This document shows, piece by piece, positions 857 through 23,066 of a stretch of DNA of 35,805 nt. The notes under the pieces are model-generated. The model made no database searches. It was not told the origin of the DNA and worked only from the letters and a program-made list of their open reading frames with translations. Origin of the DNA: Planctomycetota bacterium (lineage in GTDB: Bacteria; Planctomycetota; UBA1135; GCA-002686595); assembly GCA_020847695.1 (NCBI GenBank), contig JADLBP010000289.1, positions 1-35,805 on the forward strand, written 5' to 3'. The position numbers and the translations under genes are program-made. Numbering within the stretch: the stretch's first letter is position 1; the number at the start of each line of letters is the position of its first letter.

Positions 857-975
857 TAGAATGCCGCGCCGCATTCCGGAGCTCGGCGTCTTGCGCCCGG
901 CTCCGGTTGCGGTCGAAGCGCCCCGGCGTCCTCCTCCGCGCCGGGCTGCCATCCGCCCTGGAGGACCCAAGAGTC
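857..975 (+). promoter_or_regulatory. Possible korA promoter -10 and structured leader with SD/anti-SD pairing
   Basis: A TAGAAT hexamer at 857-862 could be a -10 element, though no clear -35 sits 16-18 bases upstream. In the leader, CCCGGCG (922-928) can pair with CGCCGGG (939-945), leaving a pyrimidine-rich loop at 929-938. That arm and loop include GTCCTCC (928-934), an exact complement of GGAGGAC (960-966), which contains the korA Shine-Dalgarno. The two pairings compete for base 928 and the loop, so the leader could in principle switch between open and sequestered ribosome sites. Regulation is inference only. Confidence 0.25.
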
Positions 976-2841: not shown

Positions 2842-2874
2842 AACCCGTCCAGGCAAATCACCCAAGGCACTCCA

Positions 2875-3873
<999 letters not shown>

Positions 3874-3938: not shown

Positions 3939-4706
3939 CGGAGCGCGAGTCGCGCGGACTGACGCACCTCGCGCCGCTTCGACCGTGAGTGCGCTCTCAC
4001 CGCAACGTGCGTTCGGACGGCCGCGCGTGTTGCGATCGCGGCCAGCGATCCGATCGCGGGTGAGCTGCGACCGCACGTGACCTCCGACCGCACGTGACCT
4101 CCGACGGCGGATTAGCTCCGACGACGAGAGCGCTTCGACCTCAGGCGCGCGCCGACTCCGCGCGAGCGCTGATCGCGCGTGAGCTCGGACTACGACGCGC
4201 GATCTGACTGCGACGCGCGATCGATCTCTCGACGGCAGTGCGCGCGCTGGCGAGGCTCGGTGTGGCGCACGCTCACCACGAATTCGCTTTCGTCGTCGCG
4301 CGGCGAGCACGCAATCGAGGCTACGGCGATGTGCGCATTCGACTCGTGCCCACTGAGTAGCTCGCACGAACCTCCGACGCGGATGCTCGCACCGAAGCGG
4401 GAAAGTGGCGCGCACGTCATTCTGCGCGCATCGCTACCCAGGAGAGGGCAGCCGCGTTTGCGTGCGCCTACGGCATCGGCGGTGCCCGCCTACGCCGTGC
4501 GGCGCATCGCGAGCGCACGGCGCGATGTCGAGACTCGCCGCCGTTCCCATGCGCACTCCCGCGCAGCACGCCACCGAGACCGAACGCCGTCGCCGTCGCC
4601 CGACCTGTGTCGAGCGACGGCCGCTTGCGTCCGTCGGGCCGTCGCGCAGCTCGGAGTCCGCGCAATCCGTCTCTTGGACGCCTTCTTCGAGGACCGAGGC
4701 GCGTCG
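3939..4706. other. Long non-coding region upstream of the respiratory operon
   Basis: About 770 bases lacking a credible gene lie between the korAB terminator and actA. The frames here are Arg/Ser-rich shadows. The left part is a degenerate tandem repeat (separate entry). The remainder has a 7-bp hairpin (4408-4414 with 4423-4429) and direct repeats of GCCTACG around 4467 and 4490. The promoter of the respiratory operon should lie here, but I could not pick a convincing -35/-10 pair or an FNR-like palindrome. Confidence 0.4.
4016..4239. repeat. Degenerate 17-18 bp tandem repeat, about 13 units, each starting GAC/GAT
   Basis: Consecutive units begin at 4016, 4034, 4052, 4069, 4086, 4103, 4120, 4137, 4154, 4171, 4188, 4206 and 4223. 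Every unit starts with GAC or GAT and is 17 or 18 bases long. Units 4069-4085 and 4086-4102 are identical and each contains the palindrome CACGTG. Units 4188-4205 and 4206-4222 are near copies sharing CGACGCGCGATC. Units 4052 and 4171 share GATCGCG and GTGAGCT. The rough consensus is GAYCGCGCGTGAGCTCC. Possible weaker units of 20 bases start at 3941, 3961 and 3981. The unit length is not a multiple of three, so it does not encode a protein repeat. Its role is unknown: a decayed minisatellite or an array of protein-binding sites are both possible. Confidence 0.6.
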
Positions 4707-5338
4707 ATGAACTTCTTCCCGAAGTGGTGCAATGGCCTGCGAACGCTGGCCGGCGCCGGCGCCGCGGCCGCCGGGCTCTACGTCGTCGCGCTGGTCGCGT
4801 ACGGCGCGTCGCCGAAGACGCTCAACGTCGGGTTCGCTCCCGAGCAGCCGGTGCCGTTCAGCCACGCGATGCACGCGGGCGAGCTCGGGCTCGACTGCCG
4901 CTACTGCCACACGACCGTCGAACAAGGCGCGCGCGCGGCGATCCCGCCGACCGAGACCTGCATGAACTGCCACACGCGGATCCGGCCGCAGAGCGAATTG
5001 CTCGCGCCGGTGTTCGCGAGCTGGTCGGACGGCGCGTCGGTGCGTTGGAAGCGCGTCCACGACCTGCCCGACTACGTGTACTTCGACCACAGCGCGCACG
5101 TCACGCGCGGCGTCGCGTGCATCTCGTGCCACGGTCGCGTGGACACGATGGAACGCGTCCGCCAAGAGCAGCCGCTGAGCATGGGCTGGTGCCTCGATTG
5201 CCACCGCAATCCGACGCCCAACCTGCGTCCGCCGGAGTTCGTCACGGCCATGGAGTGGACCCCCGATCGCCCGGCGGCGGAGATCGGCGCCGAGATCGCG
5301 CAAGCGAAGCAAATCCAACCCTCGACCGACTGTTCGAC

Positions 5339-5351
<13 letters not shown>
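4707..5351 (+). CDS. actA: Alternative complex III subunit A, pentaheme cytochrome c
   Basis: A 214-residue membrane-anchored, periplasmic multiheme cytochrome, the electron-transfer subunit of the quinol:cytochrome c oxidoreductase ACIII. One hydrophobic helix lies at about residues 15-33 (uncleaved anchor or signal). Five CXXCH heme sites are at residues 64-68 (CRYCH), 85-89 (CMNCH), 138-142 (CISCH), 162-166 (CLDCH) and 209-213 (CSTCH, two residues from the end). Five hemes is the number known for ActA of Rhodothermus. ATG 4707 is chosen because it places the anchor at the N-terminus; the open frame upstream is Arg-rich and falls in the repeat region. The preceding Shine-Dalgarno is poor. 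The 3' end overlaps actB by 13 bases. Confidence 0.93.
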
Positions 5352-9744
<4,393 letters not shown>

Positions 9745-9752
<8 letters not shown>

Positions 9753-10971
9753 GAGCGTCGCGATCCAGAACGCGAGCGAGCGCCCGCTGCACGGCGTGCT
9801 CGCCGAGTTCGACGACGTCGATTCGATCAGCGCCGCCGCACGCGAAGTGCGCGACGCGGGATACACGCGCTTCGACGTCTACAGCCCGTTCCCGATCCAC
9901 GGCATCGAGCGTCACATGGGTCTGCGCCCGACGAAGCTGCCTTGGATCGTGCTCGTGTGCGGCCTCTCGGGCACGAGCCTCGCGCTGTTCTTCCAGTGGT
10001 GGACCAACGCGGTCGACTACCCGTTCAAGATCAGCGGCAAGCCGCTGTTCGGGATCCCCGCCAACATCCCGGTGACGTTCGAGTTCACCGTGTTGCTCTC
10101 GGCGTTCGCGGCGTTCTTCGGGATGCTGATCCTGAATCGCCTGCCCGAGCACCATCGGCCGGTGTTCGAGAGCTCGCGCTTCCGGCGCGCGACCGACGAC
10201 GGCTTCTTCCTCGCGATCGAGGCCGACGATCCGCAGTTCGACGCGGCGAAGACGCGTGCGTTGCTCCAGAAGCTCTCGCGCCATCCGGTCGAGCTCTGCC
10301 ACGACTCCGGACAGAGCGCGGCGATGCCGGTCTGGATCCGTTCCGCGCTGGTCGCGGTCGGCGCGCTCGCGCTGTTGCCGCTCGCGGCGGTCGTCTGGGC
10401 GCGCGCGTCGGATACGACGCGTCCGCCGATCCACATCGTGCAGGACATGGACTCGCAGCAGCGCTTCCGCGCTCAGGTCGCCAACCAGGTGTTCGCCGAC
10501 GGACGCGCGATGCGTCCCGATCCGGCCGGTACCGTCGCGTGGGGCGAGTTGCGCACCGACGCGACCCTCGCCAGCGGCAAACGCGGCGACGCATTCCTCG
10601 AGACGTTCCCGGTGCCGGTGACCGACGCCGTGATCGCGCGAGGTCGCGAACGCTTCGCCGTCTACTGCACGCCGTGCCACGGTCAGTCGGGCTACGGTGA
10701 CGGGCTCGTCGCGCTGCGCGCCGCCGAGCTCCAAGAGCAGAACTGGGTGCAGCCTTCGTCGCTGCACGATCCCTTGGTGCGTGCGCGTCCGGTCGGCCAG
10801 ATCTTCGACACGATCCGCAACGGCGTGCGCACGATGCCCGCGTACGGCCGTCAGATGTCGGTCGAGGATTCGTGGGCGATCACTGCTTACGTGCGAGCGC
10901 TGCAGCGCTCGCAGAACGCCACGATCGACGACGTACCCGCCGCCGAACGGGCGAAGTTGGGAGTGCAGTGA
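9745..10971 (+). CDS. actDE: Fused ActD-ActE: DUF3341 membrane subunit joined to mono-heme cytochrome c subunit of ACIII
   Basis: A 408-residue protein combining two ACIII subunits usually encoded separately. Residues ~16-190 are ActD (DUF3341): a soluble segment with [13 protein letters not shown], then two helices at about 66-83 and 111-130. A third helix at about 198-218 starts the ActE part, followed by the family segments [30 protein letters not shown] and a heme site CTPCH at 308-312 ([13 protein letters not shown]). The downstream MPAYGRQM offers the Met axial ligand. The DNA has no stop or frame break at the junction. It begins with an 8-base overlap with actC. The fusion would fix a 1:1 ratio and put the ActE heme beside ActD on the periplasmic face. 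I do not know how widespread it is. Confidence 0.9.
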
Positions 10972-10990: not shown

Positions 10991-12205
10991 ATGACCCATT
11001 CACTCGCACAACAGACTCCGAAGCTCGGCTCCCGCGCCTCGCGCTGGGGAGCGATCGCCTTGGGGATCGGCGTGGTCGCGCTCGCGGCCGCCGCGTACCT
11101 CGGTTGGTCGAAGGGCGACGGCTTCAAGCGCCTGCAGCACGCCTGGCTGGTCGCCTGCGCGTTCTACCTGAGCATCTCGCTCGGCGGATTGTTCTTCGTG
11201 ATCATCCAGCACCTGACGCGCGCCGGCTGGAGCGTCGTGGTGCGGCGCGTCGCGGAGCTCGTCGCCGCGAACACGCTGGTGATCGCGATCCTGTTCGCGC
11301 CGCTCGTGGTGATGGTGCTGCGCGGAGACGCGTCGCTCTATCCGTGGGCGGACGCGGAGCACGTGCACGCCGAGCCGCTGCTCGCCGCCAAGGCGCCGTG
11401 GCTCGACCCGCGCTTCTTCGCGCTGCGTTGCGTCGTGTACTTCGGCACGTGGTGGCTGATCGGACGCTGGCTGCTCAAGCGCTCGACCGAGCAGGATGCC
11501 GCGACCGGAGTGGAGCCGACGCTCGCGCTCGAGCGCCGCGCCGCGCCGGCGATGGTCGGCTTCGCGCTGACGATCAACTTCGCCGCGTTCGACCTGCTGA
11601 TGTCGATCGTGCCGACCTGGTACAGCACGATGTTCGGCGTCTACATCTTCGCCGGATCCGTGATGTCGTTCTTCGCGTTCAGCGTCGTCGCGCTGCGCTT
11701 CCTCCAGAAGAACGGGCTGCTCGATCGCGAAGTCAACGTCGAGCACTATCACGACCTCGGCAAGTTCCTCTTCGCCTTCGTCTTCTTCTGGAGCTACGTC
11801 GCGTTCAGCCAGTTCATGCTGATCTGGTACGCCGACATCCCCGAGGAGACGTTCTGGTTCAAGGAGCGCATGGAGGGCTCGTGGGCGATCGTGTCGACCG
11901 TCCTGCTCTTCGGGCACTTCGTGTTGCCGTTCGCCGGTCTGCTGTCGCGTCACGCGAAGCGGCGGCTCGGCATCCTGACGTTCTGGGCCGTGTGGCTGCT
12001 CGTGATGCAAGCGGTCGACCTGTTCTGGCTCGTGATGCCGAGCGCGGAGCACGGCGGCGCGCTGGTCGGTGCGATCGACATCGCGTGCCTCGCTGCGGTC
12101 GGCGGAATCTGGGCGTTCGCCCTCACCAAGCTCGCCGGTGAGCGCGCGCTGATCCCCGTGAACGATCCGCGCCTCTCGCAGTCCCTGGCGTTCGAGAACT
12201 TCTGA
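10991..12205 (+). CDS. actF: Alternative complex III subunit F, NrfD-like membrane protein
   Basis: A 404-residue polytopic membrane protein with roughly ten helices, the second, more divergent NrfD-like subunit of ACIII. Recognisable segments are QHAWLVACAFYLSISLGGLF (about residues 50-70), DPRFFALRCVVYFGTWWLIG, SIVPTWYSTMFGVYIFAGS, NVEHYHDLGKFLFAFVFFWSY and FSQFMLIWYADIPEETFWF, all characteristic of ActF. Its role is structural or in proton movement rather than a redox site, judging from the family. ATG 10991 follows the actDE stop by 19 bases with a weak ACGGAG upstream. The next gene begins 2 bases after its stop. It closes the ACIII gene set; no separate actG was found unless the following small protein plays that part. 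Confidence 0.92.
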   Translation: MTHSLAQQTPKLGSRASRWGAIALGIGVVALAAAAYLGWSKGDGFKRLQHAWLVACAFYLSISLGGLFFVIIQHLTRAGWSVVVRRVAELVAANTLVIAILFAPLVVMVLRGDASLYPWADAEHVHAEPLLAAKAPWLDPRFFALRCVVYFGTWWLIGRWLLKRSTEQDAATGVEPTLALERRAAPAMVGFALTINFAAFDLLMSIVPTWYSTMFGVYIFAGSVMSFFAFSVVALRFLQKNGLLDREVNVEHYHDLGKFLFAFVFFWSYVAFSQFMLIWYADIPEETFWFKERMEGSWAIVSTVLLFGHFVLPFAGLLSRHAKRRLGILTFWAVWLLVMQAVDLFWLVMPSAEHGGALVGAIDIACLAAVGGIWAFALTKLAGERALIPVNDPRLSQSLAFENF

Positions 12206-12207
12206 TC

Positions 12208-12519
12208 ATGGAAGCTCGTACTTCGTCCTCCCTGTCCTCGATCCTCGGCGGCACGGCGATCTTCGTCGGCGCGGCTGGGTTGCTCGCGCTGCTGGTGCCC
12301 GCGTTCTACCAGCAGCGGGTCGCCGAGCTGAAGGCCGAGCGCGGTTGGGCCGCGACTCCGCTGGAGACCAACCAGACCAAGTCGGCCCAAGCGTCTCGCT
12401 TGAAGGCGTACGGCTGGATCGATCGCAAGAACGGCGTCGTCGCGCTGCCGATCGAGCGCGCGATGGAGCTCGTGGTCGCCGAATCCGCCGGCATGAACGG
12501 TGGGGAGGTGAAGAAGTGA
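12208..12519 (+). CDS. Small single-helix membrane protein between ACIII and the coxB-like gene
   Basis: A 103-residue protein with one transmembrane helix (about residues 12-32, ending LLVPAFYQQRV) and a short soluble domain containing SRLKAYGWIDRKNGVVALPI and ERAMELVVAE. I recall similar 'YGW-D---G---IPI-RAM-L' segments in small or fused proteins within ACIII/cytochrome oxidase clusters of several phyla, but no established function. The position, 2 bases after actF and overlapping the next gene by 4, argues that it belongs to the complex, either as an assembly factor or an ActG-like accessory subunit. It ends at TGA 12517-12519, and the GGGGAGG near its 3' end (12502-12508) serves the next gene. 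Confidence 0.75.
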   Translation: MEARTSSSLSSILGGTAIFVGAAGLLALLVPAFYQQRVAELKAERGWAATPLETNQTKSAQASRLKAYGWIDRKNGVVALPIERAMELVVAESAGMNGGEVKK

Positions 12520-13559
12520 ACTTCCTCGCGCTGATCCAAGCCGCTGCGGCGGCCGCTCAACCGACGGCGCCCGCGGCGGCGCAAGCGACCGCCGCGCAGG
12601 CTCCGGCGGCCCAAGCCCCGGTCGCGGACGCGGCGGCGCCCGTCGCGCAAGCGGCGAAGGAGCTGCTGCCGCAGGCCTCGACGTTCGCCGCGTCGATCGA
12701 CGACTCGTTCCTGCTGATCCTGTGGTTCGCCGTGTTCCTCGCGATCGTCGTCGCGGGAGCGTTCGCGATCATGGTGCTGCGCCCGAGCGCGGGCACCGCG
12801 GGCTCGACGTCGAGGGCGCTGTATCGCTGGAGCGCGGTCGGCGCGTTCGCGCTGGTCGCCGTCTTCTTCGTGCAAGGCGCTCGCGTGTGGGCCGACATGC
12901 AGGTCGTGCCGCGCGGCGCCGTGCCGGTGCGCGTCGCGCTCGAGGAGAAGGGTTGGAGCTTCACGTACCCGAACGGCTACGTGACCAACGAGCTGCACCT
13001 CCCGATCGATCGCGCGGTCAAGCTGACGTTCCAGGGCGCGAGCGAGCCGTACACCTTCGCGGTGCCGGCGTTCCGCCTGCAGATCGCAGTGCCGGTCGGC
13101 ACGCGACGCGACGCGTGGGTGCAACCGACGCTCGCGGGCGACTGGGAAGTGCGCTCGACCGTACCGTCGCTGCGCAAGGCCGAGGAGCTCGTCGCCCAAG
13201 CGACCGTGCACGCCGAAGGCGGCTACGAGAAGTGGTACCAGGACATCTCCGGTCCGCCGCTCGATCTCCCGCCGGTCGAGCTCGGTCAGCGCTCCTACCA
13301 GATGCGCGGCTGCACGCAGTGTCACACCGTCGACGGCGCCAAGCTCGTCGGGCCGACGTTCAAGGGCTTCCTCGCGCGCGAGCACCGCATGAAGGACGGC
13401 TCGGTCGTCGACCCGAGCGACGACTACATCAAGGAATCGATCCTCGATCCGCAGGCCAAGGTCGTCGAGGGCTTCGAGCCGGTGATGCCGAGCTTCAAGG
13501 GCCGCCTCCACGAACTCGAGGTCGCCGGTCTGGCCGCCTACATCAAGAGCCTCCAGTGA
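12516..13559 (+). CDS. Cytochrome oxidase subunit II-like protein with a C-terminal heme c, CuA ligands missing
   Basis: A 347-residue protein with the layout of caa3 oxidase subunit II. An Ala-rich N-terminus (signal or linker) is followed by two helices (about 64-88 and 103-121), a cupredoxin-like domain (about 130-245) and a cytochrome c domain with CTQCH at 266-270 and a likely Met ligand at 324 (EPVMPSF). The fold is recognisable from EKGWSFTYPNGY and EPYTFAVPAFRLQIAVPVG. The copper site is gone: aligned by eye with bovine COX II, H161 is Y179, C196 is S214, C200 is S218, H204 is A222 and M207 is L225. It therefore cannot bind CuA in the usual way. The start is GTG 12516, with a strong GGAGG eight bases upstream and a 4-base overlap (GTGA) with the previous gene. 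The frame is intact, so it is not an obvious pseudogene. Confidence 0.85.
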   Translation: MNFLALIQAAAAAAQPTAPAAAQATAAQAPAAQAPVADAAAPVAQAAKELLPQASTFAASIDDSFLLILWFAVFLAIVVAGAFAIMVLRPSAGTAGSTSRALYRWSAVGAFALVAVFFVQGARVWADMQVVPRGAVPVRVALEEKGWSFTYPNGYVTNELHLPIDRAVKLTFQGASEPYTFAVPAFRLQIAVPVGTRRDAWVQPTLAGDWEVRSTVPSLRKAEELVAQATVHAEGGYEKWYQDISGPPLDLPPVELGQRSYQMRGCTQCHTVDGAKLVGPTFKGFLAREHRMKDGSVVDPSDDYIKESILDPQAKVVEGFEPVMPSFKGRLHELEVAGLAAYIKSLQ

Positions 13560-15061
13560 ACTCCTCGCACTCCATCGGTTCGACCAATCCCGGCGCGGCG
13601 GCGAAGCCGAGCGCCGGTGGGGAACTCTGGTTCTTCACGCAGGATCACCGCCGGCTCGCGTGGATGTACGCGATCGTGATCGGTCTCTCGCTGGTCGTGG
13701 GCACGGTGCTCGCGGTCGGCCTCGGGCTGCAACCGCTGACCGGGCACGGCACCGCGGCGGACGCGGAGAGCTACCGACGCCTGTACAGCATGCACGGGCT
13801 CGTGATGGTGTTCCTGGTCGCGCTCCCCGCGCTGCCGGGCATCGTCGGCAACTGGCTGCTGCCCGAGCGGCTCGGCGTCGACGAGATGGCGTGGCCGCGG
13901 ATGAATCTGCTCGCTTTCCAGCTGCTGCTGGTCGGCTGCGTGTTCTTCCTGGTCGCGTTCTTCGCGACGCCGCTCGACACCGGTTGGGACTTCGCGCTGC
14001 CGTACGCGTTGAAGAGCAACTCGAGCGTCGCATGGGGCATGCTCGGCATCGTCTTCGTCGCGGCGTCGTTCGCGACCTCGGGCGCGAACATCGTCGCGAC
14101 CGTGATCACCAGCCGCGGCGCCGGACGCTGCTGGTCCGATCTGCCGTTCTTCGCGTGGGCGATGGGCGCGGCGGGGTTGATCCAAGCGATCGTCACGCCG
14201 GTGCTGCTCGCCGCGCTCGCCTTGCTGTTCGCGCAACGCGAAGGAGCGAGCGACGTGTTCGCGTCGAGCGGCGCGGACGTGCGTTTCGACCAGTGGTTCT
14301 GGTTCTGGGCGCACCCGGCGCTCGCCTCGATGCTGCTCGCCGCGATCGCGGTGATCGGGGACGTCGTCGGCGAGCACGGTGACCGGCCGCGCGGTGCTTC
14401 GCGCGCCTCGGTGCTCAGCGTGATGGCGATCACCGTCTTCGCGTTCGCCGGGTGGGGGATCCACGTGCTCGGTCGCACCGATTCGGCGGCGTGCGACGCG
14501 GCGTTCAGCGCGCTCGTGCTCGCCTCGGGTGTGCCGCTGATCGTCCTGATCGTCGATTGGGTGACGACGCTCGAGCGCGGCGAAGCCCGCGCGACGACCG
14601 CGCTCGGTTACGCGGCGACCAGCGTCGTCGCGCTGACCGTCGGCGGAATGGCCGGCGTCTTCCTCGCGGTGCCCGGCACCGGCGCGCACCTGCAGAACAC
14701 GAGCTTCTCGACCGGCGCGCTGCACTTCCTGGTCGTCGGCGGCGTGCTCGGTGCGTTGCTCGCGGGCGTGCACCAGCTCTGGCCGCGCTGGATCGGCGTC
14801 GCCGCGCGCGAAGGCTGGGGCAAGTTCGCGTGCTTCCTCTTCTTCGTCGGCGTCAACCTCGCGTTCGTGCCGCTGTGCGTGCGCGGGTACCTCGGACAGC
14901 CGCGGCGGACGCTCGAAGTCGTCGCCGCGGACGAGCGACTCGGCTGGTACGCGGTGCTCGGTGCCGGGCTGGTCGTCGGCGCGTTGACGCTCGCCGCCTG
15001 GAACCTGGTCGCGACGCTGCTCGATTCGCGCGCGGTGCTCGCGAAGAAGGAGGCGGATTGA
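13556..15061 (+). CDS. Heme-copper oxidase subunit I-like protein lacking the catalytic heme/CuB site
   Basis: A 501-residue, roughly 12-helix protein clearly homologous to COX I: LYSMHGLVMVF, PGIVGNWLLPERLG, MAWPRMNLLAFQLLL, FWFWAHPALASML and TVGGMAGVFLA. Both low-spin heme ligands remain: H80 (bovine H61) and H390 (H378). The oxygen-reducing site does not: heme a3 ligand H376 is A388, CuB ligand H290 is I302, crosslinked Y244 is A257, E242 is A255, K319 is L331, and the Mg-site H368/D369 are Q380/N381. Two CuB-type histidines persist (H253, H303). The alignments around H303 and H390 need no gap, which supports the assignments. GTG 13556 overlaps the coxB-like stop by 4 bases. The protein is probably a membrane b- or a-type cytochrome relay or structural subunit, not an oxidase; this is inference. 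Confidence 0.85.
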   Translation: MNSSHSIGSTNPGAAAKPSAGGELWFFTQDHRRLAWMYAIVIGLSLVVGTVLAVGLGLQPLTGHGTAADAESYRRLYSMHGLVMVFLVALPALPGIVGNWLLPERLGVDEMAWPRMNLLAFQLLLVGCVFFLVAFFATPLDTGWDFALPYALKSNSSVAWGMLGIVFVAASFATSGANIVATVITSRGAGRCWSDLPFFAWAMGAAGLIQAIVTPVLLAALALLFAQREGASDVFASSGADVRFDQWFWFWAHPALASMLLAAIAVIGDVVGEHGDRPRGASRASVLSVMAITVFAFAGWGIHVLGRTDSAACDAAFSALVLASGVPLIVLIVDWVTTLERGEARATTALGYAATSVVALTVGGMAGVFLAVPGTGAHLQNTSFSTGALHFLVVGGVLGALLAGVHQLWPRWIGVAAREGWGKFACFLFFVGVNLAFVPLCVRGYLGQPRRTLEVVAADERLGWYAVLGAGLVVGALTLAAWNLVATLLDSRAVLAKKEAD

Positions 15062-15798
15062 TCCAGAGCTGCTGTTCTCCGGCCGAGACCGCGCCGAGCG
15101 ACCTCGCCCAGCTGTTCGCCTTCGGGCTCTTGATGAGCGCGGGGCACTGCCTGGGCATGTGTGGTCCGCTCGTGTGCGCGGTCTCGATGCCGTCGCAGAA
15201 GGGCAGCCAGCGATGGTCGGCGCTCGCGTGGGCCGGCGTGTACCACGCGGGCCGCGTCGCGAGCTACGCGTTGCTCGGCGGACTGCTCGGCGCGCTCGGC
15301 GGGATGCTGCCGGATCGCACGGCGACCGTCGTGTGGCAAGCGTCGTTGTCGTTCCTCGCCGCCGCGGCGCTGTTCTGGATCGGGCTCGCGCTGTTCGACG
15401 TCTTCCCTCTCGCGTCGCTGCCGTTCGCCGGCCGCGTTTCGCGGTGGTTGATGCAGAAGGTCGGCGGCGCGAAGAGCGGCATCGCCGCGCGCTTCGTCCT
15501 CGGCATGGCCAACGGTCTCTTGCCGTGCGGCCCGGTGTACACCGCCGCGGTCGCGGCGCTCGCATCGGCGAGCCCCGCTCGCGGCGCGATCGCGATGGTC
15601 GTCTTCGGCGCCGGAACGGTACCGGTGCTCGTCGCACTCGCGTTCGGCGTGCGTTGGGTCGGCCAGCGCGTGCGCCTCGGCTTCTATCGCGTCGGCGCGG
15701 CGCTCGCGCTGTTGATGGCTTGCCAGCTCGCGCTGCGCGGTCTCGCAGCGCTCGAGCTCGTCCCGCACGCGCGCTTCCACGAGGTGGTGCTGTGGTGA
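15058..15798 (+). CDS. SafE/TauE-type membrane protein, cytochrome/copper biogenesis type (COG2836)
   Basis: A 246-residue membrane protein with about six helices. The helix-1 motif MSAGHCLGMCGPLV and the later GMANGLLPCGPVYTA (two Cys-containing helices) are the hallmarks of the COG2836 branch of the SafE family, which often sits next to ccoI in cbb3 clusters and is suspected to help copper or thiol delivery. An unusual N-terminal CC (MIQSCCSPAE) adds two Cys. The start chosen is TTG 15058, preceded by AAGGAGG at 15047-15053 and overlapping the coxA-like stop by 4 bases (TTGA). An internal ATG at 15134 would cut off part of helix 1. The gene is followed directly by ccoI. Confidence 0.8.
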   Translation: MIQSCCSPAETAPSDLAQLFAFGLLMSAGHCLGMCGPLVCAVSMPSQKGSQRWSALAWAGVYHAGRVASYALLGGLLGALGGMLPDRTATVVWQASLSFLAAAALFWIGLALFDVFPLASLPFAGRVSRWLMQKVGGAKSGIAARFVLGMANGLLPCGPVYTAAVAALASASPARGAIAMVVFGAGTVPVLVALAFGVRWVGQRVRLGFYRVGAALALLMACQLALRGLAALELVPHARFHEVVLW

Positions 15799-18209
15799 TC
15801 GCCGCCGAACCCGTTCGCGGCCAAGCCGACGACCGCGCGAGGACGCGGCCGCAGGTCTGCTTGCACTGCGGGCTGCCGCTCGGCCGCGCGCGCGACCTCG
15901 GGCCGTTCTGCTGCGCGGGCTGCAAGAACGTGCACGAGCTGCTCCACGCGCAAGGGCTCGAGCGCTTCTACGAGCTGCGAGGCGAAAGCGACGCGCCGCC
16001 GCCCGAGCTCCGGCCGGACACGTTCGCGTGGCTCGATCCGCTGCTCGCGGCGTCGAAGCCCGCGGAGAACGGCACGCAACGGCTGACGCTCGACGTCCAA
16101 GGGGTGCACTGCGCGGCGTGCGTGTGGTTGCTCCAGGAGCTCTGGAACCGCGAGCGCGGCGCGGTCGACCTGCGCGTCAACCCGGCGCTCGGCCGCGCCG
16201 AGTTCCTGTGGAAGCCCGCCGAGCTCGATCTGCGCCACTACCTGCGCGCGGTCGAGCGCTTCGGCTACCGCTTCGGCGCCGCGCGCAAGCGCGACCTCGG
16301 CTCGACGCGCGGACTGGTCGTGCGACTCGGCGTGTGCTTCGCCGCCGCGCTGAACACGATGATCTTCAGCCTCTGCTACTACGTCGGGCTGACGCCGCAG
16401 GACGGCGCGCTCTACGGCGTGCTCGGGCGGTGGAGCTTCGCGCTCGCGACGCTCGCGGTCGCGTTCGGCGGCTCGCTGTTCTTCGTGTCGGCGTGGCGCG
16501 GGCTGCGGCGCGGCGTCGCGCACCTCGATCTGCCGATCGCGGTCGGCATCGCGCTCGGATACGGAGGCTCGGTGTGGGCGTGGCTCGCTCGCGGACCGGA
16601 AGCGTCGTACTTCGACACGATCACGATCTTCGTCGCGTTGATGGTGCTCGGGCGTTGGCTGCAAGAGCGCGTGCTCGAGAAGAATCGGCTCTCGTTGCTC
16701 GCCAGCGACGGCGTCGACGACCTGTACACGCGTCGGCGTCGCAACGACGTGCTCGAGACGATCCCGGCGGCGTCGATCGAGCCCGGCGACGAGCTCTGGA
16801 TCCTCCCCGGCGACCTGGTGCCGGTCGAAGGCACCGTGCTCGGCGAACGCGCGACGATGAGTCTCGATTGGATCACCGGCGAATCGCGGCCGCGCACGTT
16901 CGAGCCCGGCGAGAACGTCCCCGCGGGCTCGTTCCAAGCCGGTGCGACCGCGACGCGCCTCGCCGCCGCCGAAGGCTTCAGCGCCTCGCGCCTCCACTCG
17001 CTGCTCGGCTCGGGCGCGAAGCCGCTAGGCCGTGAGGATCGTCAGGATCGCTGGTGGAGCCGGTTCGCGACCGTGTACGTGCTCGCGGTGCTCGCGCTCG
17101 CGACCGTCGGGTTCGTCTTCTGGCTGCCGCAAGGGCTCGAGCGCGGCATCGAGGTCGCGTTGTCGGTGTTGGTCGTCACCTGCCCGTGCGCGCTCGGGCT
17201 CGCGATGCCGCTCGCGAACGAGCTCGTGCACATGGCGCTGCGACGCCGCGGGATCTTCCTGCGCGAAGCGAGCTTCCTGCGGCGCGCCCTGCGCGTCCGC
17301 CACGTGCTCTTCGACAAGACCGGGACGCTGACGCGCGGCACGCTGCGGCTGACCGAGCGATCGCTCGCCGAGCTCGAAGCGCTCGATCCCGAGTCGCGCG
17401 TGGTGCTCGCGCAAGGCGCGGCGCAGAGCCTGCATCCGGTCAGCCGTTGCATCCACGCGGCGCTCTCGCGTGGCGGGCGGACGCAGCTCGTCCACGGGCT
17501 CGAAGTGCGCGAACTCGCCGGGCGCGGGCTCGAGCTGCGGCTCGGCGCGCGTTCCTGGAAGCTCGGCAACCCGACGTTCGTCGTCGGCGCCGACTCGAAG
17601 CAGGCCGCTCGAACGTTGTTCGCGCGCGACGGCGTCGTACTCGCGAGCCTCGAGGTCGAGGAAGAGCTCAAGTCCGATGCGCGCGAAGAAGTGCGGCGGC
17701 TCGAAGAGGGCGGGCTGCGCGTCCACGTGCTCAGCGGCGACCGCGACGAGCGCGTCACCCGCGTCGCGACCGAGCTCGGCGTCGATCCCGAGCGCGTGCG
17801 CGGTGCGCTCTCGCCCGAGGACAAGGCCCGCTACGTGCGCACGCTCGACATGCGCAACACGTGGATGATCGGCGATGGCATCAACGACGGGCTCGCGTTC
17901 GACGCGGCGTACTGCGCGGCGACCCCCGCGGTCGATCGGCCGAACCTGCCGTCGCGCGCGGACCTCTTCTACCTCGGCGACGGCGTCAGCGCGGTGCGCG
18001 TGACGCTCGCGTGGGCGCGGCGACTCGCATCGGTGCTGCGCGCCAATCTCGTGCTCGCGATCACCTACAACCTGGTGGTGGTCGCGGCGTGCCTCGCCGG
18101 CCAGATCGGACCGATCGCAGCCGCGGTGCTGATGCCGCTGTCGTCGATCGGCTTCCTCACGATGACCACCCTGCGACTGACTCGGAGGACCCAAGCATGG
18201 ACGTCCTGA
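15795..18209 (+). CDS. ccoI: Copper-translocating P-type ATPase for cbb3 assembly (CcoI/FixI type)
   Basis: An 804-residue P1B-type ATPase that exports Cu(I) across the membrane for insertion into the cbb3 oxidase. The N-terminus has the CcoI-specific Cys-rich domain (CLHCGLPLG, FCCAGCKNVHELL), followed by a heavy-metal-associated domain with HCAACVWLL. Catalytic motifs in order are TGES (dephosphorylation), CPC in the metal-binding helix (VVTCPCALGLAMP), DKTGTLT (phosphorylated Asp), HP (LHPVSR) and GDGINDG. GTG 15795 gives a 4-base overlap with the SafE-type gene; an adjacent in-frame GTG at 15792 is equally possible. ccoS overlaps its end by 13 bases. The presence of ccoI immediately before ccoS and ccoN supports the cbb3 role over general copper detoxification. 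Confidence 0.92.
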   Translation: MIAAEPVRGQADDRARTRPQVCLHCGLPLGRARDLGPFCCAGCKNVHELLHAQGLERFYELRGESDAPPPELRPDTFAWLDPLLAASKPAENGTQRLTLDVQGVHCAACVWLLQELWNRERGAVDLRVNPALGRAEFLWKPAELDLRHYLRAVERFGYRFGAARKRDLGSTRGLVVRLGVCFAAALNTMIFSLCYYVGLTPQDGALYGVLGRWSFALATLAVAFGGSLFFVSAWRGLRRGVAHLDLPIAVGIALGYGGSVWAWLARGPEASYFDTITIFVALMVLGRWLQERVLEKNRLSLLASDGVDDLYTRRRRNDVLETIPAASIEPGDELWILPGDLVPVEGTVLGERATMSLDWITGESRPRTFEPGENVPAGSFQAGATATRLAAAEGFSASRLHSLLGSGAKPLGREDRQDRWWSRFATVYVLAVLALATVGFVFWLPQGLERGIEVALSVLVVTCPCALGLAMPLANELVHMALRRRGIFLREASFLRRALRVRHVLFDKTGTLTRGTLRLTERSLAELEALDPESRVVLAQGAAQSLHPVSRCIHAALSRGGRTQLVHGLEVRELAGRGLELRLGARSWKLGNPTFVVGADSKQAARTLFARDGVVLASLEVEEELKSDAREEVRRLEEGGLRVHVLSGDRDERVTRVATELGVDPERVRGALSPEDKARYVRTLDMRNTWMIGDGINDGLAFDAAYCAATPAVDRPNLPSRADLFYLGDGVSAVRVTLAWARRLASVLRANLVLAITYNLVVVAACLAGQIGPIAAAVLMPLSSIGFLTMTTLRLTRRTQAWTS

Positions 18210-18430
18210 TCGTCCTGGTCTTCGTGAGCATCGTGCTCGTCGCAGGCGGGCTCCTCTTGCTCTTCTTCTCGCTCAATCAGCGCGATTTCGAGCACGCGGA
18301 TCGTCTGTCCCTCCTTCCTCTCCTCGACCCCAGTGGGCTCGAACCAAGCGGCATCGCGCACTCCGTCTCCGCCACCGCGGCCGACGAAGCGACGCGCTCC
18401 GCTCCCGATTCCGTCCCTTCGAAACCCTGA
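18197..18430 (+). CDS. ccoS: cbb3 oxidase assembly protein CcoS
   Basis: A 77-residue protein with a single N-terminal transmembrane helix (about residues 3-25) followed by SLNQRDFEHADR, matching the short CcoS pattern of a helix and an acidic 'F-D-D' stretch. CcoS is needed for insertion of the metal and heme cofactors into cbb3 oxidase. The C-terminal ~35 residues are Ser/Ala/Pro-rich and probably disordered, longer than usual. The start at ATG 18197 is supported by GGAGGA at 18184-18189 and overlaps ccoI by 13 bases. ccoNO starts 13 bases after the stop. Confidence 0.82.
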   Translation: MDVLIVLVFVSIVLVAGGLLLLFFSLNQRDFEHADRLSLLPLLDPSGLEPSGIAHSVSATAADEATRSAPDSVPSKP

Positions 18431-18443
18431 GCTCTTCACGATC

Positions 18444-20801
18444 ATGAACGCTTCAACGACCGTTACGCGACGAGTCGAGTACAACGACGCCGTCGTACGG
18501 GCCTTCCTCCTCGCGTCGCTGATCTTCGGCGTGGTGGGACTGCTGCTCGGTGTCATCATCGCGTCGCAGCTCTCGTTCTGGCAGGCGAACCTGGGCCTGC
18601 AGTGGACGACGTTCGGACGCCTGCGCCCGTTGCACACGAACGCGGCGATCTTCGCGTTCGTCGGCAACATGATGTTCGCCGGCATCTACCACTCGATGCA
18701 GAGGCTCCTGCGAACGCGTCTCGGCTCCGATGCGTTGACGTGGGCGCACTTCATCGGGTGGCAGCTGATCATCGTCTGCGCGGCGGTGTCGCTGCCGCTC
18801 GGACTCTCGCAGGGCAAGGAGTACGCCGAGCTCATCTGGCCGATCGACGTGATGGTCGCGGTCGTCTGGGTGATCTTCGCGATCAACTTCTTCCTGACGA
18901 TCGGGAAGCGCAACGAGAAGAACCTCTACGTCGCGATCTGGTTCTACATCGCGACGGTGGTGACCATCCCGGTCCTCTACATCGTCAACAACCTGCAGAT
19001 CCCGACGAGCATCCTGCACAGCTATCCGGTCTTCGGCGGCGTGCAAGACGCGCTCGTCCAGTGGTGGTACGGGCACAACGCGGTGGCGTTCTTCCTGACC
19101 ACGCCGATCCTCGGGATCATGTACTACTACCTGCCGAAGGCGGTCGGTCGGCCTGTGTACAGCTACCGACTCTCGGTGGTGCACTTCTGGTCGCTGGTCT
19201 TCCTCTACATCTGGGCCGGCCCGCACCACTTGCTGAACTCGGCGCTGCCGGAGTGGGCGCAGACGCTCGGCATGGTGTTCAGCGTGATGCTCTGGGCGCC
19301 GTCCTGGGGCGGGATGCTCAATGGTCTGCTGACGTTGCGCGGAGCGTGGAACACGCTGCGCACCGACCCAGTGGTCAAGTTCCTGATCGTCGGCGTGACC
19401 TTCTACGGCATGTCGACGTTCGAGGGACCGCTGCTCTCGATCAAGAGCGTCAACGCGCTCGGCCACTACACCGACTGGATCATCGGTCACGTGCACGGCG
19501 GCGCGCTCGGCTGGAACGCGGGCATGGCGGCGGGCATGTTCTATTGGCTGTTCCCGCGGATGTGGGGCACCAAGCTCTGGTCGACGAAGCTCGCCGACGC
19601 GCACTTCTGGCTGTCGACGTTCGGCATGTTGCTCTACATCGGCGCGATGTGGGTCGCCGGCGTCAACCAGGGACTCTTCTTCCAAGCGCTCGACGCCGAG
19701 GGCTTCCTCAAGAACACCGACTTCGTCGAAGTTCTCAACGGCGGTCAGTTCCTCTATCTGATGCGCCTCATCGGCGGAGTCGCGTTCTTCAGCGGCTACC
19801 TGATGATGGTCGTCAACTTGGTGATGACCGTCCGCGCGGGCACGGCCGTCAACGAGTCGGTCGATGTCCCGGTGCACGAGGAAGGTCCCGCGGCGCCGGT
19901 GCTCGCACTGATCTTCAGCGCGCCGGTGATGCTGACCGTGATCGTCGTCGCGGCTTCGGTCGCGTTCGGCCTCGCCGGGCCGATCACCAGCGCGGTGGTC
20001 GCGGCGATCGGCGCGCTGCTGGTGGTGGTGTGCATGATGTACTACCGCCGCTATCAGGAGCAGAAGGTCCGCTGGCACGCGCTGCTCGAAGGCCGCACGT
20101 TCCTGTTCACGGTGCTCGTCCTGATCGCGATCTTGGTCGGCGGTCTGATCGAGATCGTCCCGACGGTCGTCAACAAGGACTACGGTGCGGTGACCGCGTC
20201 CGCGAACAAGCCCGAGATGGTCGCGACGCCGAGCAAGTACCTGCAAGTCCCGTACACGCCGCTCGAGCTCGAAGGTCGCGACATCTACGTGCGTGAAGGC
20301 TGCTACGTCTGTCACAGCCAGATGGTGCGTCCGTTCCGCCACGAGACGCTGCGCTACGGCGACTACTCGCGCGCGGAGTCGTTCGTCTACGACCACCCGT
20401 ACCAGTGGGGCTCGAAGCGGACCGGTCCCGACCTGCACAGGCTCGCGGGACGTTACCCGAACCTCTGGCACTTCCAGCACATGCGCGATCCGCGCTCGAC
20501 GTCGCCCGGCTCGATCATGCCGGTCTACGCGTGGCTGCACGAGCAGACGGTCGACTTCGCGGCGACGCCGAAGAAGCTCTCCGTGATGCGCACGCTCGGC
20601 GTGCCCTACGAGCAGCAGACGATCGACGACGCGAAGGAGCTCGCGCTCGCCCAGGGCCGGTTGATCGCCGAGGATCTGAAGAAGACCGGCGGCGTCGACA
20701 TCGCGCCCGACAAGGAGATCGTCGCGTTGATCGCGTACCTACAACAACTTGGCCTCTTGCACGAGCCTCCGCCGCTGGCGCAGGCCGTGGAGGTGAAGTG
20801 A
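18444..20801 (+). CDS. ccoNO: cbb3-type cytochrome c oxidase, fused subunits I and II (CcoN-CcoO)
   Basis: A 785-residue fusion of the catalytic subunit CcoN with the mono-heme cytochrome c subunit CcoO. In the CcoN part, the histidine ligands of an active C-family heme-copper oxidase are all visible: RPLHTNAAIF (low-spin heme, H64), WWYGHNAVAFF (CuB), AGPHHLL (CuB pair) and GHVHGGALGW (high-spin and low-spin heme). It thus carries the oxygen-reducing site that the upstream coxA-like protein lacks. The CcoO part starts near residue 540 with a helix, then EGCYVCHSQMVRPF (heme c) and TGPDLHRLAGRYP. The fusion is known in Bacteroidota and Planctomycetota. ATG 18444 follows ccoS by 13 bases without a clear Shine-Dalgarno. 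Confidence 0.95.
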   Translation: MNASTTVTRRVEYNDAVVRAFLLASLIFGVVGLLLGVIIASQLSFWQANLGLQWTTFGRLRPLHTNAAIFAFVGNMMFAGIYHSMQRLLRTRLGSDALTWAHFIGWQLIIVCAAVSLPLGLSQGKEYAELIWPIDVMVAVVWVIFAINFFLTIGKRNEKNLYVAIWFYIATVVTIPVLYIVNNLQIPTSILHSYPVFGGVQDALVQWWYGHNAVAFFLTTPILGIMYYYLPKAVGRPVYSYRLSVVHFWSLVFLYIWAGPHHLLNSALPEWAQTLGMVFSVMLWAPSWGGMLNGLLTLRGAWNTLRTDPVVKFLIVGVTFYGMSTFEGPLLSIKSVNALGHYTDWIIGHVHGGALGWNAGMAAGMFYWLFPRMWGTKLWSTKLADAHFWLSTFGMLLYIGAMWVAGVNQGLFFQALDAEGFLKNTDFVEVLNGGQFLYLMRLIGGVAFFSGYLMMVVNLVMTVRAGTAVNESVDVPVHEEGPAAPVLALIFSAPVMLTVIVVAASVAFGLAGPITSAVVAAIGALLVVVCMMYYRRYQEQKVRWHALLEGRTFLFTVLVLIAILVGGLIEIVPTVVNKDYGAVTASANKPEMVATPSKYLQVPYTPLELEGRDIYVREGCYVCHSQMVRPFRHETLRYGDYSRAESFVYDHPYQWGSKRTGPDLHRLAGRYPNLWHFQHMRDPRSTSPGSIMPVYAWLHEQTVDFAATPKKLSVMRTLGVPYEQQTIDDAKELALAQGRLIAEDLKKTGGVDIAPDKEIVALIAYLQQLGLLHEPPPLAQAVEVK

Positions 20802-20802
20802 C

Positions 20803-21000
20803 GTGTTCCAGGAGTTCTACAAGTCGAGCGAGTGGCTCACGTTGCCGCTGATCGCTCTCGTCTTCTTCTTCCTATTCTTCGTCGCGGTGTTGCTCTGGGT
20901 GGCCTTCGGGATGCGAGACCCGCGTCGGGTCGATCGTCTGTCCGAACTGCCCTTCACCGACCGCGAGAGCGCCACGCATCAGGAGTCGATCCATGGCTGA
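20803..21000 (+). CDS. ccoQ: cbb3 oxidase small membrane subunit CcoQ
   Basis: A 65-residue protein with one very hydrophobic helix (about residues 14-36) and a charged tail (GMRDPRRVDRLSELPF). Size, topology and position between ccoO and ccoP identify it as CcoQ, which stabilises the cbb3 complex. The start is GTG 20803, one base after the ccoNO stop, with GGAGGTGA upstream at about 20789-20796. Its 3' end overlaps ccoP by 8 bases. Confidence 0.8.
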   Translation: MFQEFYKSSEWLTLPLIALVFFFLFFVAVLLWVAFGMRDPRRVDRLSELPFTDRESATHQESIHG

Positions 21001-21637
21001 CCAACACGTAGACGTCACCCTCGATCACAGCTTCGACGGCATCCAGGAGTACGACAACCGCCTGCCGAACTGGTGGCTGTTCACGCTCTATGGCGCGGTC
21101 GTGTTCTCGGTCGGGTACTGGCTCTTCTATCACACGTTCGGCGTGGGCTTCACGCAGGACGAGAGCTACAACCACGAAGTCGAAGTCGCCGCTCAGGAGC
21201 AACTGCAGCGTGAGATGGGCAAGGAAGTGACGGCGGAGTCGCTCTTGCTCATGACCAAAGTGACCGCGCAGACCGATGCCGGCGCGAAGATCTTCCAGCA
21301 GAAGTGCGTTCAATGTCACGGGCCGCAAGCAGCGGGTGACATCGGCCCGAACCTGACCGACGACTTCTGGATCCACGGCCCCGAGCCGCTCCAGATCTAC
21401 AACACCGTGATGAACGGCGTGCAAGACAAGGGCATGCAGGCGTGGAAGGATCAGCTCGGTCCCGTGCGCGTGCGACAAGTCGTTTCTTTCGTACTCACTC
21501 GGAAGGGGTTGAACGTCGCGGGCAAGGCGCCACAAGGGAAGTCGATCGCCGAGTGGGACAAGGAGAACGCGGCTCTGAAGGCTGCGGAACCGAAGCCCGC
21601 GGATGCCGGAACCCCGGCGCCGAAGAGCGGCGGCTGA
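20993..21637 (+). CDS. ccoP: cbb3 oxidase subunit III, mono-heme CcoP
   Basis: A 214-residue membrane-anchored cytochrome c. The N-terminus has the CcoP signature HSFDGIQEYDNRLPNWWLF followed by one helix (about residues 29-46). Only one heme site is present, CVQCH at 105-109, with a Met-containing segment near residue 148 as axial ligand. Canonical proteobacterial CcoP has two CXXCH sites and about 300 residues, so this is the short, mono-heme version. The C-terminal ~30 residues are Ala/Pro/Lys-rich and probably flexible. The start at ATG 20993 overlaps ccoQ by 8 bases. The missing second heme means electrons must enter through one heme here or from a partner such as ActE or the coxB-like cytochrome domain. 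Confidence 0.9.
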   Translation: MADQHVDVTLDHSFDGIQEYDNRLPNWWLFTLYGAVVFSVGYWLFYHTFGVGFTQDESYNHEVEVAAQEQLQREMGKEVTAESLLLMTKVTAQTDAGAKIFQQKCVQCHGPQAAGDIGPNLTDDFWIHGPEPLQIYNTVMNGVQDKGMQAWKDQLGPVRVRQVVSFVLTRKGLNVAGKAPQGKSIAEWDKENAALKAAEPKPADAGTPAPKSGG

Positions 21638-21665
21638 GAGCTCGCGCGCCGGGACGCGCACACCC

Positions 21666-23066
21666 GTGACCACCAAGATCCAAAAAGGCATCCGGCGCAA
21701 GCCGGACCTGGACACCGTCTACTCGATCAACGCCGACGGCTCGCGCAACATGCTGCAGCCGGCCGACGTGAAGGGCCGTTGGCACACGCGCAAGAACCTG
21801 ATCTTCGCGGCGCTGATCGCCTTCTACGTGATCGTGCCGTGGATCCGGGTCGGGGGCGCGCCGATCCTGCGCTTCGACGTCCCCAATCGCACCGCGTACA
21901 TCGTCGGCAACACGTTCACGCGCGAGGACTTCTATCTCGTCTTCTTCCTGATCACGGGGTTCGGGTTCGCGCTGTTCGCCGTGACGTCCTTGCTCGGGCG
22001 GGTGTGGTGCGGCTTCGCGTGTCCACAGACGGTGTTCCTCGAGGGCGTGTACCGGCGCATCGAGGTCTGGATCGAGGGCGACCGCAATGCTCGCCTGCGC
22101 CGCAACCAAGGCGCGTGGACGTTCGACAAACTGTGGCGCAAGGTCGCGAAGCAGCTCGCGTTCATCTTGCTGACGTTCGGCATCACGCACACGTTGCTCG
22201 CGTATTTCATGCCGGTCGAGGAGATGATCCCGGCGATCCTGAACGGGCCGTCGGGGCACTGGCTCGCGTTCTCGTGGACGCTCGCGCTCAGCGCGGTGAT
22301 CTACTTCGACTTCGCGTGGTTCCGCGAGCAGTTCTGCGTGATCATCTGCCCGTACGGGCGCCTCCAGTCCGCGCTGATCGACAACGACTCCGTCGTGATC
22401 GGCTACGACGAGAAGCGCGGCGAGCCGCGCGGCCCGAAAGGCCGAGTCGACGGTGACTGCATCGACTGCGGCAGCTGCGTCAACGTGTGCCCGACCGGCA
22501 TCGACATCCGCAACGGTTTGCAGCTCGAGTGCATCGGTTGCACCAACTGCGTCGATGCGTGTGACTCGATCATGAAGCAGGTTGGGCGCAAGGAAGGCCT
22601 GATCCGCTACGACTCGTTGCGGGGTTTCCAGGGCAACGGACACCGTTGGCTCCGGCCGCGGGTCTTCCTCTACATCGGGCTCGCGTTGCTCGGGCTCACT
22701 GTGTTCGGCTTCACCGCCTCGAAGCGGACGTCGTTCGAAGCGACTTCGCTGCGCGCGCGCGGCATGCCGTACACGCTCGAGGAAGCGCGCATCCAGAACC
22801 TCTACTCGATCCACCTCCAGAACAAGTCGACCACGAAGGCCGAGTACACGGTCGAACCGTTCGTGTCCGAGCCCGTGACCACTCCGGTCGAATGGCGCGT
22901 CGCGTCCGAGAAGCTCGAGATCGAGCCTCTCGGAGAAGCGACGATCTCCGTGTTCGCGTTCGTGAGTCGCGACGCCTACCGCCAACCCTTCCCCGTCGGC
23001 ATCAAGGTCAGCGACCTCGCCGCGCAGGAAGTCCAAATCGTCGAGCTGACCTTCCGAGGCCCCTGA
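21666..23066 (+). CDS. ccoG: cbb3 oxidase accessory protein CcoG (polyferredoxin)
   Basis: A 466-residue membrane iron-sulfur protein of the CcoG/RdxA/FixG family, linked to Cu(II) reduction during cbb3 assembly. About five helices flank CGFACPQTVFLEGVYRRIE and REQFCVIICPYGRLQ, and two 4Fe-4S motifs are seen: CIDCGSCVNVCPTGID and CIGCTNCVDACDSIM. The C-terminal ~110 residues form the family's Ig-like periplasmic domain (NLYSIHLQNKS). GTG 21666 is chosen, giving a normal CcoG N-terminus (KIQKGIRRKPDLDTVYSI); an in-frame ATG at 21603 would overlap ccoP by 35 bases, adds an Arg-rich tail and has no Shine-Dalgarno. It lies 28 bases after ccoP. Confidence 0.92.
   Translation: MTTKIQKGIRRKPDLDTVYSINADGSRNMLQPADVKGRWHTRKNLIFAALIAFYVIVPWIRVGGAPILRFDVPNRTAYIVGNTFTREDFYLVFFLITGFGFALFAVTSLLGRVWCGFACPQTVFLEGVYRRIEVWIEGDRNARLRRNQGAWTFDKLWRKVAKQLAFILLTFGITHTLLAYFMPVEEMIPAILNGPSGHWLAFSWTLALSAVIYFDFAWFREQFCVIICPYGRLQSALIDNDSVVIGYDEKRGEPRGPKGRVDGDCIDCGSCVNVCPTGIDIRNGLQLECIGCTNCVDACDSIMKQVGRKEGLIRYDSLRGFQGNGHRWLRPRVFLYIGLALLGLTVFGFTASKRTSFEATSLRARGMPYTLEEARIQNLYSIHLQNKSTTKAEYTVEPFVSEPVTTPVEWRVASEKLEIEPLGEATISVFAFVSRDAYRQPFPVGIKVSDLAAQEVQIVELTFRGP

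Follow-up and report, generated by a model that had tools for sequence, protein, structure and literature searches.

A selected COX I homologue that has lost its oxygen-reducing site, encoded between ACIII and cbb3 oxidase genes in Planctomycetota

Two described respiratory assemblies are among the systems closest to the locus investigated in this study. In Rhodothermus marinus, ACIII and a caa3 oxidase form a supercomplex, in which a large membrane subunit is located next to ActC and ActE adjoins the c domain of subunit IIc (PMC5928083). In Rhodobacter capsulatus, cytochrome cy, which is anchored by a membrane helix at the interface between bc1 and cbb3, links both complexes (PMC7876108). The locus resides on a window of 35,805 nucleotides (the whole stretch of DNA that was analysed) from a Planctomycetota bacterium and encodes homologues of the oxidase subunits I and II, termed Cox1' and Cox2'. 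It resembles ACIII-linked caa3 oxidases of the R. marinus type (PMC5928083) in its place after ActF, in the fusion of subunit II to a cytochrome c, in the descent of Cox1' from COX I and in the c domain of Cox2', whose nearest solved relative (1w2l, 2e-22) was deposited as cytochrome oxidase subunit II. Unlike in these oxidases, Cox1' lacks the high-spin heme ligand, the cross-linked tyrosine and one CuB histidine, and the cluster is devoid of CuA, SCO, Cox3 and Cox4.

All genes of the cluster are located on the + strand. The ACIII part starts with ActA (4179..5351), a multiheme cytochrome c with five CxxCH motifs (Pfam Cytochrome_C7, 2.9e-14), followed by ActB (5348..8344), which contains a molybdopterin-type and an Fe-S domain (Fer4_7, 4.9e-14 in the ORF 4607-8344) and whose start is approximate, with the alignment of relatives beginning around position 5405. 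The NrfD-type membrane subunit ActC (8232..9752; Pfam NrfD, 1.8e-23), whose real start may be downstream, precedes a fusion of ActD to a mono-heme ActE-like cytochrome c with a single CxxCH (9745..10971; Pfam ActD, 7.2e-66; Cytochrome_CBB3, 2.6e-12). ActF (10991..12205), a second NrfD-like membrane subunit with an orthologue in every ACIII cluster inspected, was assigned by its position and a weak similarity to ActC (27%). It is followed, as in most of these clusters, by a small membrane protein (12208..12519) with a YGWIDRKNGVVALPIERAMELV motif, for which no Pfam family was found. Directly 5' of ActA, a two-gene 2-oxoacid:ferredoxin oxidoreductase (907-3873; POR, TPP_enzyme_C) is encoded.

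Downstream of cox2' (12516..13559) and cox1' (13556..15061), the window continues with a membrane protein of the DsbD_2 family (15058..15798; Pfam DsbD_2, 1.4e-40), whose TTG start overlaps the stop of cox1', and a CcoI/FixI-like P-type ATPase with an ATPase-cat_bd domain (15795..18209; E1-E2_ATPase, 1.2e-26; ATPase-cat_bd, 6.9e-9), a putative supplier of copper. A single gene spanning 15060-18209 was considered and rejected, as Pfam separates the two proteins. The cbb3 oxidase is encoded by a CcoN-CcoO fusion (18333..20801; Pfam COX1, 2.4e-109; FixO, 3.1e-83), whose active-site histidines are intact, with GHN, PHH and GHVH motifs that align with those of the solved CcoN structures 3mk7 and 9g6b, and which carries the heme c site of CcoO (CYVCH). 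It is followed by a mono-heme CcoP with one CxxCH (20993..21637; Pfam FixP_N, 4.6e-19) and a CcoG/FixG-like Fe-S protein (21603..23066; Pfam Fer4_18, 2.6e-37; FixG_C, 5.1e-10). The well-studied CcoP of Rhodobacter contains two heme c sites. In the cbb3 operons of the order (window 20993-21637 and L117-L121), CcoP has one such site and CcoN and CcoO are encoded by one fused gene; the mono-heme CcoP was thus discarded as a special trait, being also common to the cbb3 operons of relatives.

The same gene order, ActABCD/EF-small protein-Cox2'-Cox1'-DsbD_2-P-type ATPase-CcoNO-CcoP-CcoG, is found in five of five clusters, each with the ACIII genes directly upstream, which agrees with the position beside ACIII that the initial annotation had pointed out. 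In contrast, canonical ACIII clusters of relatives read ActABCDEF-small protein-SCO-Cox2-Cox1-Cox3-Cox4, and SCO, Cox3 and Cox4, which each of the 12 inspected canonical clusters contains, are absent from each of the five with Cox1'. In the window, overlaps of four bases connect the small protein to cox2', cox2' to cox1', cox1' to the DsbD_2 gene and the latter to the ATPase gene, and cox2'-cox1' is thus probably translationally coupled to the genes on either side. Among 154 genomes of the order, ActC was detected in 118 and CcoN in 67, but the two are adjacent in only the five genomes with Cox1'. Further cases could be concealed by the shortness of some contigs, although in G019, G033 and G095, whose genomes are near-complete, about 60 kb or more lie between ActC and CcoN.

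Cox1' is encoded by an uninterrupted 501-codon frame, which runs from GTG at 13556 to TGA at 15059-15061; its product of 501 residues was initially annotated as a COX I homologue with retained fold motifs. This assignment is well founded, as residues 33-457 match Pfam COX1 with an E-value of 1.3e-73. NCBIfam COX I equivalogs match with E-values down to 5e-86, at scores well under their curated cut-offs (289 bits for the CtaD model compared to a cut-off of 671 bits), phmmer aligns residues 25-472 with solved COX I chains, and a hydropathy count yields 12 TM helices. Judged by its sequence, Cox1' belongs without doubt to the COX I family by descent, whereas as an enzyme it falls outside the A-type heme-copper oxygen reductases. 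The reverse strand of 13556-15061 is also open, which is common at 68% GC, and was dismissed as a reading since the COX I homology resides on the + frame. AlphaFold2 predictions reached a mean pLDDT of 35 with three alignment rows and of 51 with eight rows, some of which were COX I genes of contigs classified as viral; with the latter model, Foldseek matched COX I chains, but at a TM score of 0.43 and an rmsd of 17 Å, so that the quality of both models is too low to judge the geometry of a heme pocket. Several such IMG/VR contigs (L108-L116) carry bacterial-type cytochrome oxidase genes and are probably host flank or misfiled.

The distinct properties of Cox1' are illustrated in an alignment of its five family members with 53 CoxA proteins of canonical type, most of which stem from the same order. 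The two low-spin heme ligands H80 (codon 13793..13795; bovine H61) and H390 (bovine H378) are invariant in all five, and so are H253 (codon 14312..14314; bovine H240) and H303 (bovine H291), two histidines of the CuB type. The third CuB ligand, bovine H290, is replaced by I302 in the window (codons of I302 and H303, 14459..14464), the cross-linked Tyr 244 by A257 and the K-channel Lys 319 by L331, with the histidine and tyrosine lost in each member and leucine found throughout at the lysine position. At the Mg site, bovine H368 and D369 correspond to Q380 and N381, and the equivalent of H368 is lost in all five. The high-spin ligand, bovine H376, corresponds to A388 (codons of A388 to H390, 14717..14725), and the members contain A, V, A, P and Q at this position; since the replacements differ, no new ligand is fixed there as judged from the alignment. 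At positions 80, 253, 257, 302, 303, 331, 380, 388 and 390, the five proteins thus read HHAIHLQAH, HHAIHLQVH, HHGIHLAAH, HHCAHLAPH and HHGVHLQQH, compared to HHYHHKHHH in 52 of the 53 canonical proteins, the remaining one of which lacks only the Mg histidine. The same five key residues are gone and the same four histidines retained in every member, so that the pattern of retained low-spin and CuB-type ligands and of losses from A257 to A388, which had been proposed for the window from comparison with the bovine protein, holds in the alignment with canonical CoxA and throughout the family.

Two further substitutions that had been counted among the changes are better described in other terms. 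The residue corresponding to bovine E242 is indeed alanine (A255), but this is no loss specific to the gene, as local canonical CoxA proteins also contain Ala or Val at this position (HPAVY). Similarly, the D-channel Asp (bovine D91) is replaced by glutamate (E110) in the window, but the position is not conserved in the family, whose members read E, E, E, A and G. In the local canonical proteins, a Tyr-Ser pair just before the histidine forms the A2-type arrangement of the heme-copper oxidase classification; the pair preceding H253 is gone from all five Cox1' proteins (Y251 to W/F, S252 to A). R38 in the bovine enzyme is the partner of the heme a formyl group, and the arginine at the equivalent position 57 is lost in the entire family. 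In contrast, R451, a residue of the propionate type, is kept in five of five, as are W144, N99 and N117.

How much weight the retained histidines can carry depends on the background of conservation. Canonical CoxA has 150 near-invariant columns, of which the five Cox1' proteins without exception retain 45 and lack 53; in total, 105 are not kept across the entire family. Against canonical invariant columns as background, the retention of both low-spin histidines has a hypergeometric probability of P=0.089, and that of all four histidines (low-spin and CuB-type) one of P=0.007, whereas the loss of five out of five O2-site, K-channel and Mg residues in all members corresponds to P=0.005; all of these sets of residues were picked post hoc. 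The statistics lend modest support to the retention of heme, and with respect to its ligands, Cox1' is likely to bind it. Members of the heme A synthase family occur in each of the five genomes; their absence, which would have narrowed the type of heme, was therefore ruled out.

The partner subunit Cox2' (12516..13559) is a subunit II-cytochrome c fusion that has lost its CuA ligands, as defined by alignment with canonical Cox2. Both TM helices are retained, but the CuA motifs (C..EYC...H..M and DVIHSF) are missing and every ligand is lost in five of five proteins; where canonical Cox2 reads ...DVIHSF...C(A/T)EYCG..HS.M..., the protein of the window contains EPYTFAVPAFR...TVPSLRKAEELVA. The cytochrome c domain (13275..13553; Pfam Cytochrom_C, 9.8e-8), with CTQCH and Met-Pro motifs, is the best conserved portion of Cox2', and its CxxCH and MP motifs are present in all five (GCxQCH...MP, with GCTQCH in the window). 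CuA is the usual electron donor to the low-spin heme, and without it the usual electron entry to the low-spin heme of Cox1' is gone. A subunit II without CuA is also found in the quinol oxidases bo3 and aa3-600, which, unlike Cox1', retain the complete heme-copper centre and are active in O2 reduction.

Compared to the protein of the window, the Cox1' orthologues show identities of 97% in G002, 75% in G001, 48% in G084 and about 43-45% in G022. They define a conserved family, as the same losses recur in all four, which comprises five genomes from two genera of uncultured Planctomycetota. Protein and profile searches of 154 genomes from the order and of 392 sampled across the phylum detected no further orthologue, and the closest named records are Planctomycetota MAGs. 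In a phylogenetic tree, the five proteins form a single clade with full SH-aLRT support on a very long stem, and due to this long branch the position of the clade within CoxA is not settled. Between the window and G002, which differ by a dS of 0.19-0.20, the dN/dS ratios of Cox1' (0.094) and Cox2' (0.083) are similar to that of CcoNO (0.082), which belongs to a working oxidase. At larger distances the ratio goes up, with dS compressed by the high GC content of third positions, and the estimate of selection therefore rests on the close pair. Cox1' is under strong purifying selection. With no stops or frameshifts in cox1' in any of the five genomes and four orthologues sharing identical losses, the initial proposal of an intact frame under selection was upheld, and the random loss and frame breaks that would indicate decay were not encountered. 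Cox1' is at the same time the fastest-evolving gene of the cluster, with an identity between the window and G022 of about 43-45% compared to 84% for ActC and 76% for CcoNO.

The initial annotation had overlooked the dead Cox2', the absence of SCO, Cox3 and Cox4 and the presence of a cbb3 operon. Together, these features suggest that redox activity resides in the cytochrome c domain of Cox2'. In the reading that we favour, and hold with moderate confidence, a former ACIII-linked caa3 oxidase has been kept as a membrane anchor docked on ACIII, whose cytochrome c passes electrons to cbb3. Cox1' and Cox2' would be the remnant of this oxidase, which would have given up oxygen reduction once the cbb3 operon lay downstream. 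The 12 helices of Cox1' and the two of Cox2' would constitute a platform docking on ACIII; if this docking was inherited from caa3, both proteins would still reside on ACIII, with the heme c of Cox2' at its exit. There, it would be reduced by ActE or ActA and, since CuA and the O2 site are gone, could only send electrons outward, with cbb3, encoded next in line, as its obvious acceptor. The electrons would be passed on to CcoO or CcoP, and cbb3 would perform all O2 chemistry at the point of the chain behind ACIII. Cox1' may still hold a low-spin heme at H80 and H390 as a structural or side cofactor.

Held in the membrane and placed between a complex III and cbb3, the cytochrome c of Cox2' would resemble cytochrome cy of R. 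capsulatus (PMC7876108), although as a functional analogue for which we do not claim common descent. The anchor of cytochrome cy is a single helix and its complex III is bc1, whereas here the proposed anchor is a dead oxidase core and the complex III is ACIII. Several observations are at odds with this reading of an anchor that hands electrons to cbb3. A cytochrome c can be anchored in the membrane without a protein of 12 helices, so that anchoring alone does not account for the retention of Cox1', a pure scaffold leaves the four invariant histidines unexplained, and Cox1' evolves faster than the neighbouring genes. Moreover, cytochrome b proteins occur in G000, G001, G002 and G022, in addition to another ACIII and its canonical caa3 in G001 and G022 and to a second ActC and a canonical caa3 in G000 and G002, and the ACIII of the cluster thus need not feed cbb3 alone, nor cbb3 draw from ACIII alone. 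A more elaborate version, in which the low-spin heme of Cox1', a two-His metal site at H253 and H303 and the CuA-less Cox2' would together form a permanent electron bridge in an ACIII-cbb3 supercomplex, is conceivable but doubtful.

Pseudoenzymes occur frequently in the kinase and protease families. In the open literature, searches for a dead or divergent COX I, for an ACIII combined with cbb3 and for respiratory clusters of Planctomycetota returned no description of such a locus, and the initial remark that a described case is not known thus stands within this scope. In the same literature, we found no description of an oxygen-reductase core that is under selection after the loss of its O2 site and CuA. 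If our preferred reading of a docked anchor is correct, a terminal oxidase can lose its chemistry and yet remain part of the architecture and wiring of a supercomplex, and the reading predicts an ACIII-cbb3 supercomplex, a pairing not found in the literature searched. Automated tools would likely call Cox1' a cytochrome c oxidase subunit I and thereby credit its hosts with an extra oxidase.

Among the alternatives, one, which follows the initial annotation, assigns the function to Cox1' itself, which would work as a low-spin membrane cytochrome, an electron relay or redox sensor without O2 chemistry. The invariance of H80, H390, R451 and W144, the retention of all 12 helices and the heme A synthases of the five genomes are all consistent with such a protein, but its usual donor CuA is lost, its interior no longer holds an acceptor, the arginine at position 57 is gone and two histidines may be kept by chance, with P about 0.09; we thus consider it unlikely, and the same applies to the reduction of the H80/H390 heme by quinol or by the heme c of Cox2' that it would entail. 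Less probable is a role of Cox1' and Cox2' in the assembly or regulation of cbb3 or of the supercomplex rather than in electron flow, for instance with the H253/H303 pair serving in copper handling or assembly. Although two of three CuB histidines are invariant and the genes overlap with those of DsbD_2 and the P-type ATPase, which supply copper, the complete heme c domain of Cox2' argues for electron transfer, and the cbb3 operons of relatives contain the ATPase, CcoNO, CcoP and CcoG without Cox1'.

It is also very unlikely that Cox1' is a slowly decaying relic carried between two useful blocks of genes. Its rate of evolution, the 105 of 150 canonical columns no longer held in all five proteins and the varied replacement of the high-spin histidine by A, V, A, P or Q would fit such decay, but the frames are whole in all five genomes, the dN/dS of 0.094 at a dS of 0.19 is near that of the working neighbour CcoNO, and the gene is retained across two genera. 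Finally, despite two retained CuB histidines, we give hardly any credence to an oxidase in which other residues serve the high-spin heme and CuB, since no substitute His, Tyr or Lys is invariant, with positions 388, 302 and 257 variable or aliphatic, and CuA, SCO and Cox3 are lost as well.

The remaining respiratory genes of the five genomes provide additional context. The second ACIII with its canonical caa3 set is located on contigs C379 and C161 of G000 (L102, L122), C84 of G001 (L099) and C67 of G022 (L101), and the ActC proteins of these loci share merely 54-59% identity with that of the window. In G084, which contains one ActC and one Cox2-type match, a search for a bc-type cytochrome b found none, which speaks for the favoured reading; the notion that this genome is without any other A-type oxidase proved wrong, as one is encoded on contig C38. 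Two further proteins related to COX I were encountered in G000. The first, a membrane protein of about 244 residues (L005, 730-1464 on contig C50), matches only positions 314-393 of the COX1 profile (E=5e-5) and contains an HAHMILVGF motif; similar short partial matches are also found in G001, G002 and G003. The second (L004, 1351-3675 on contig C95) is a COX1-family protein of 774 residues that resembles a quinol-dependent NO reductase.
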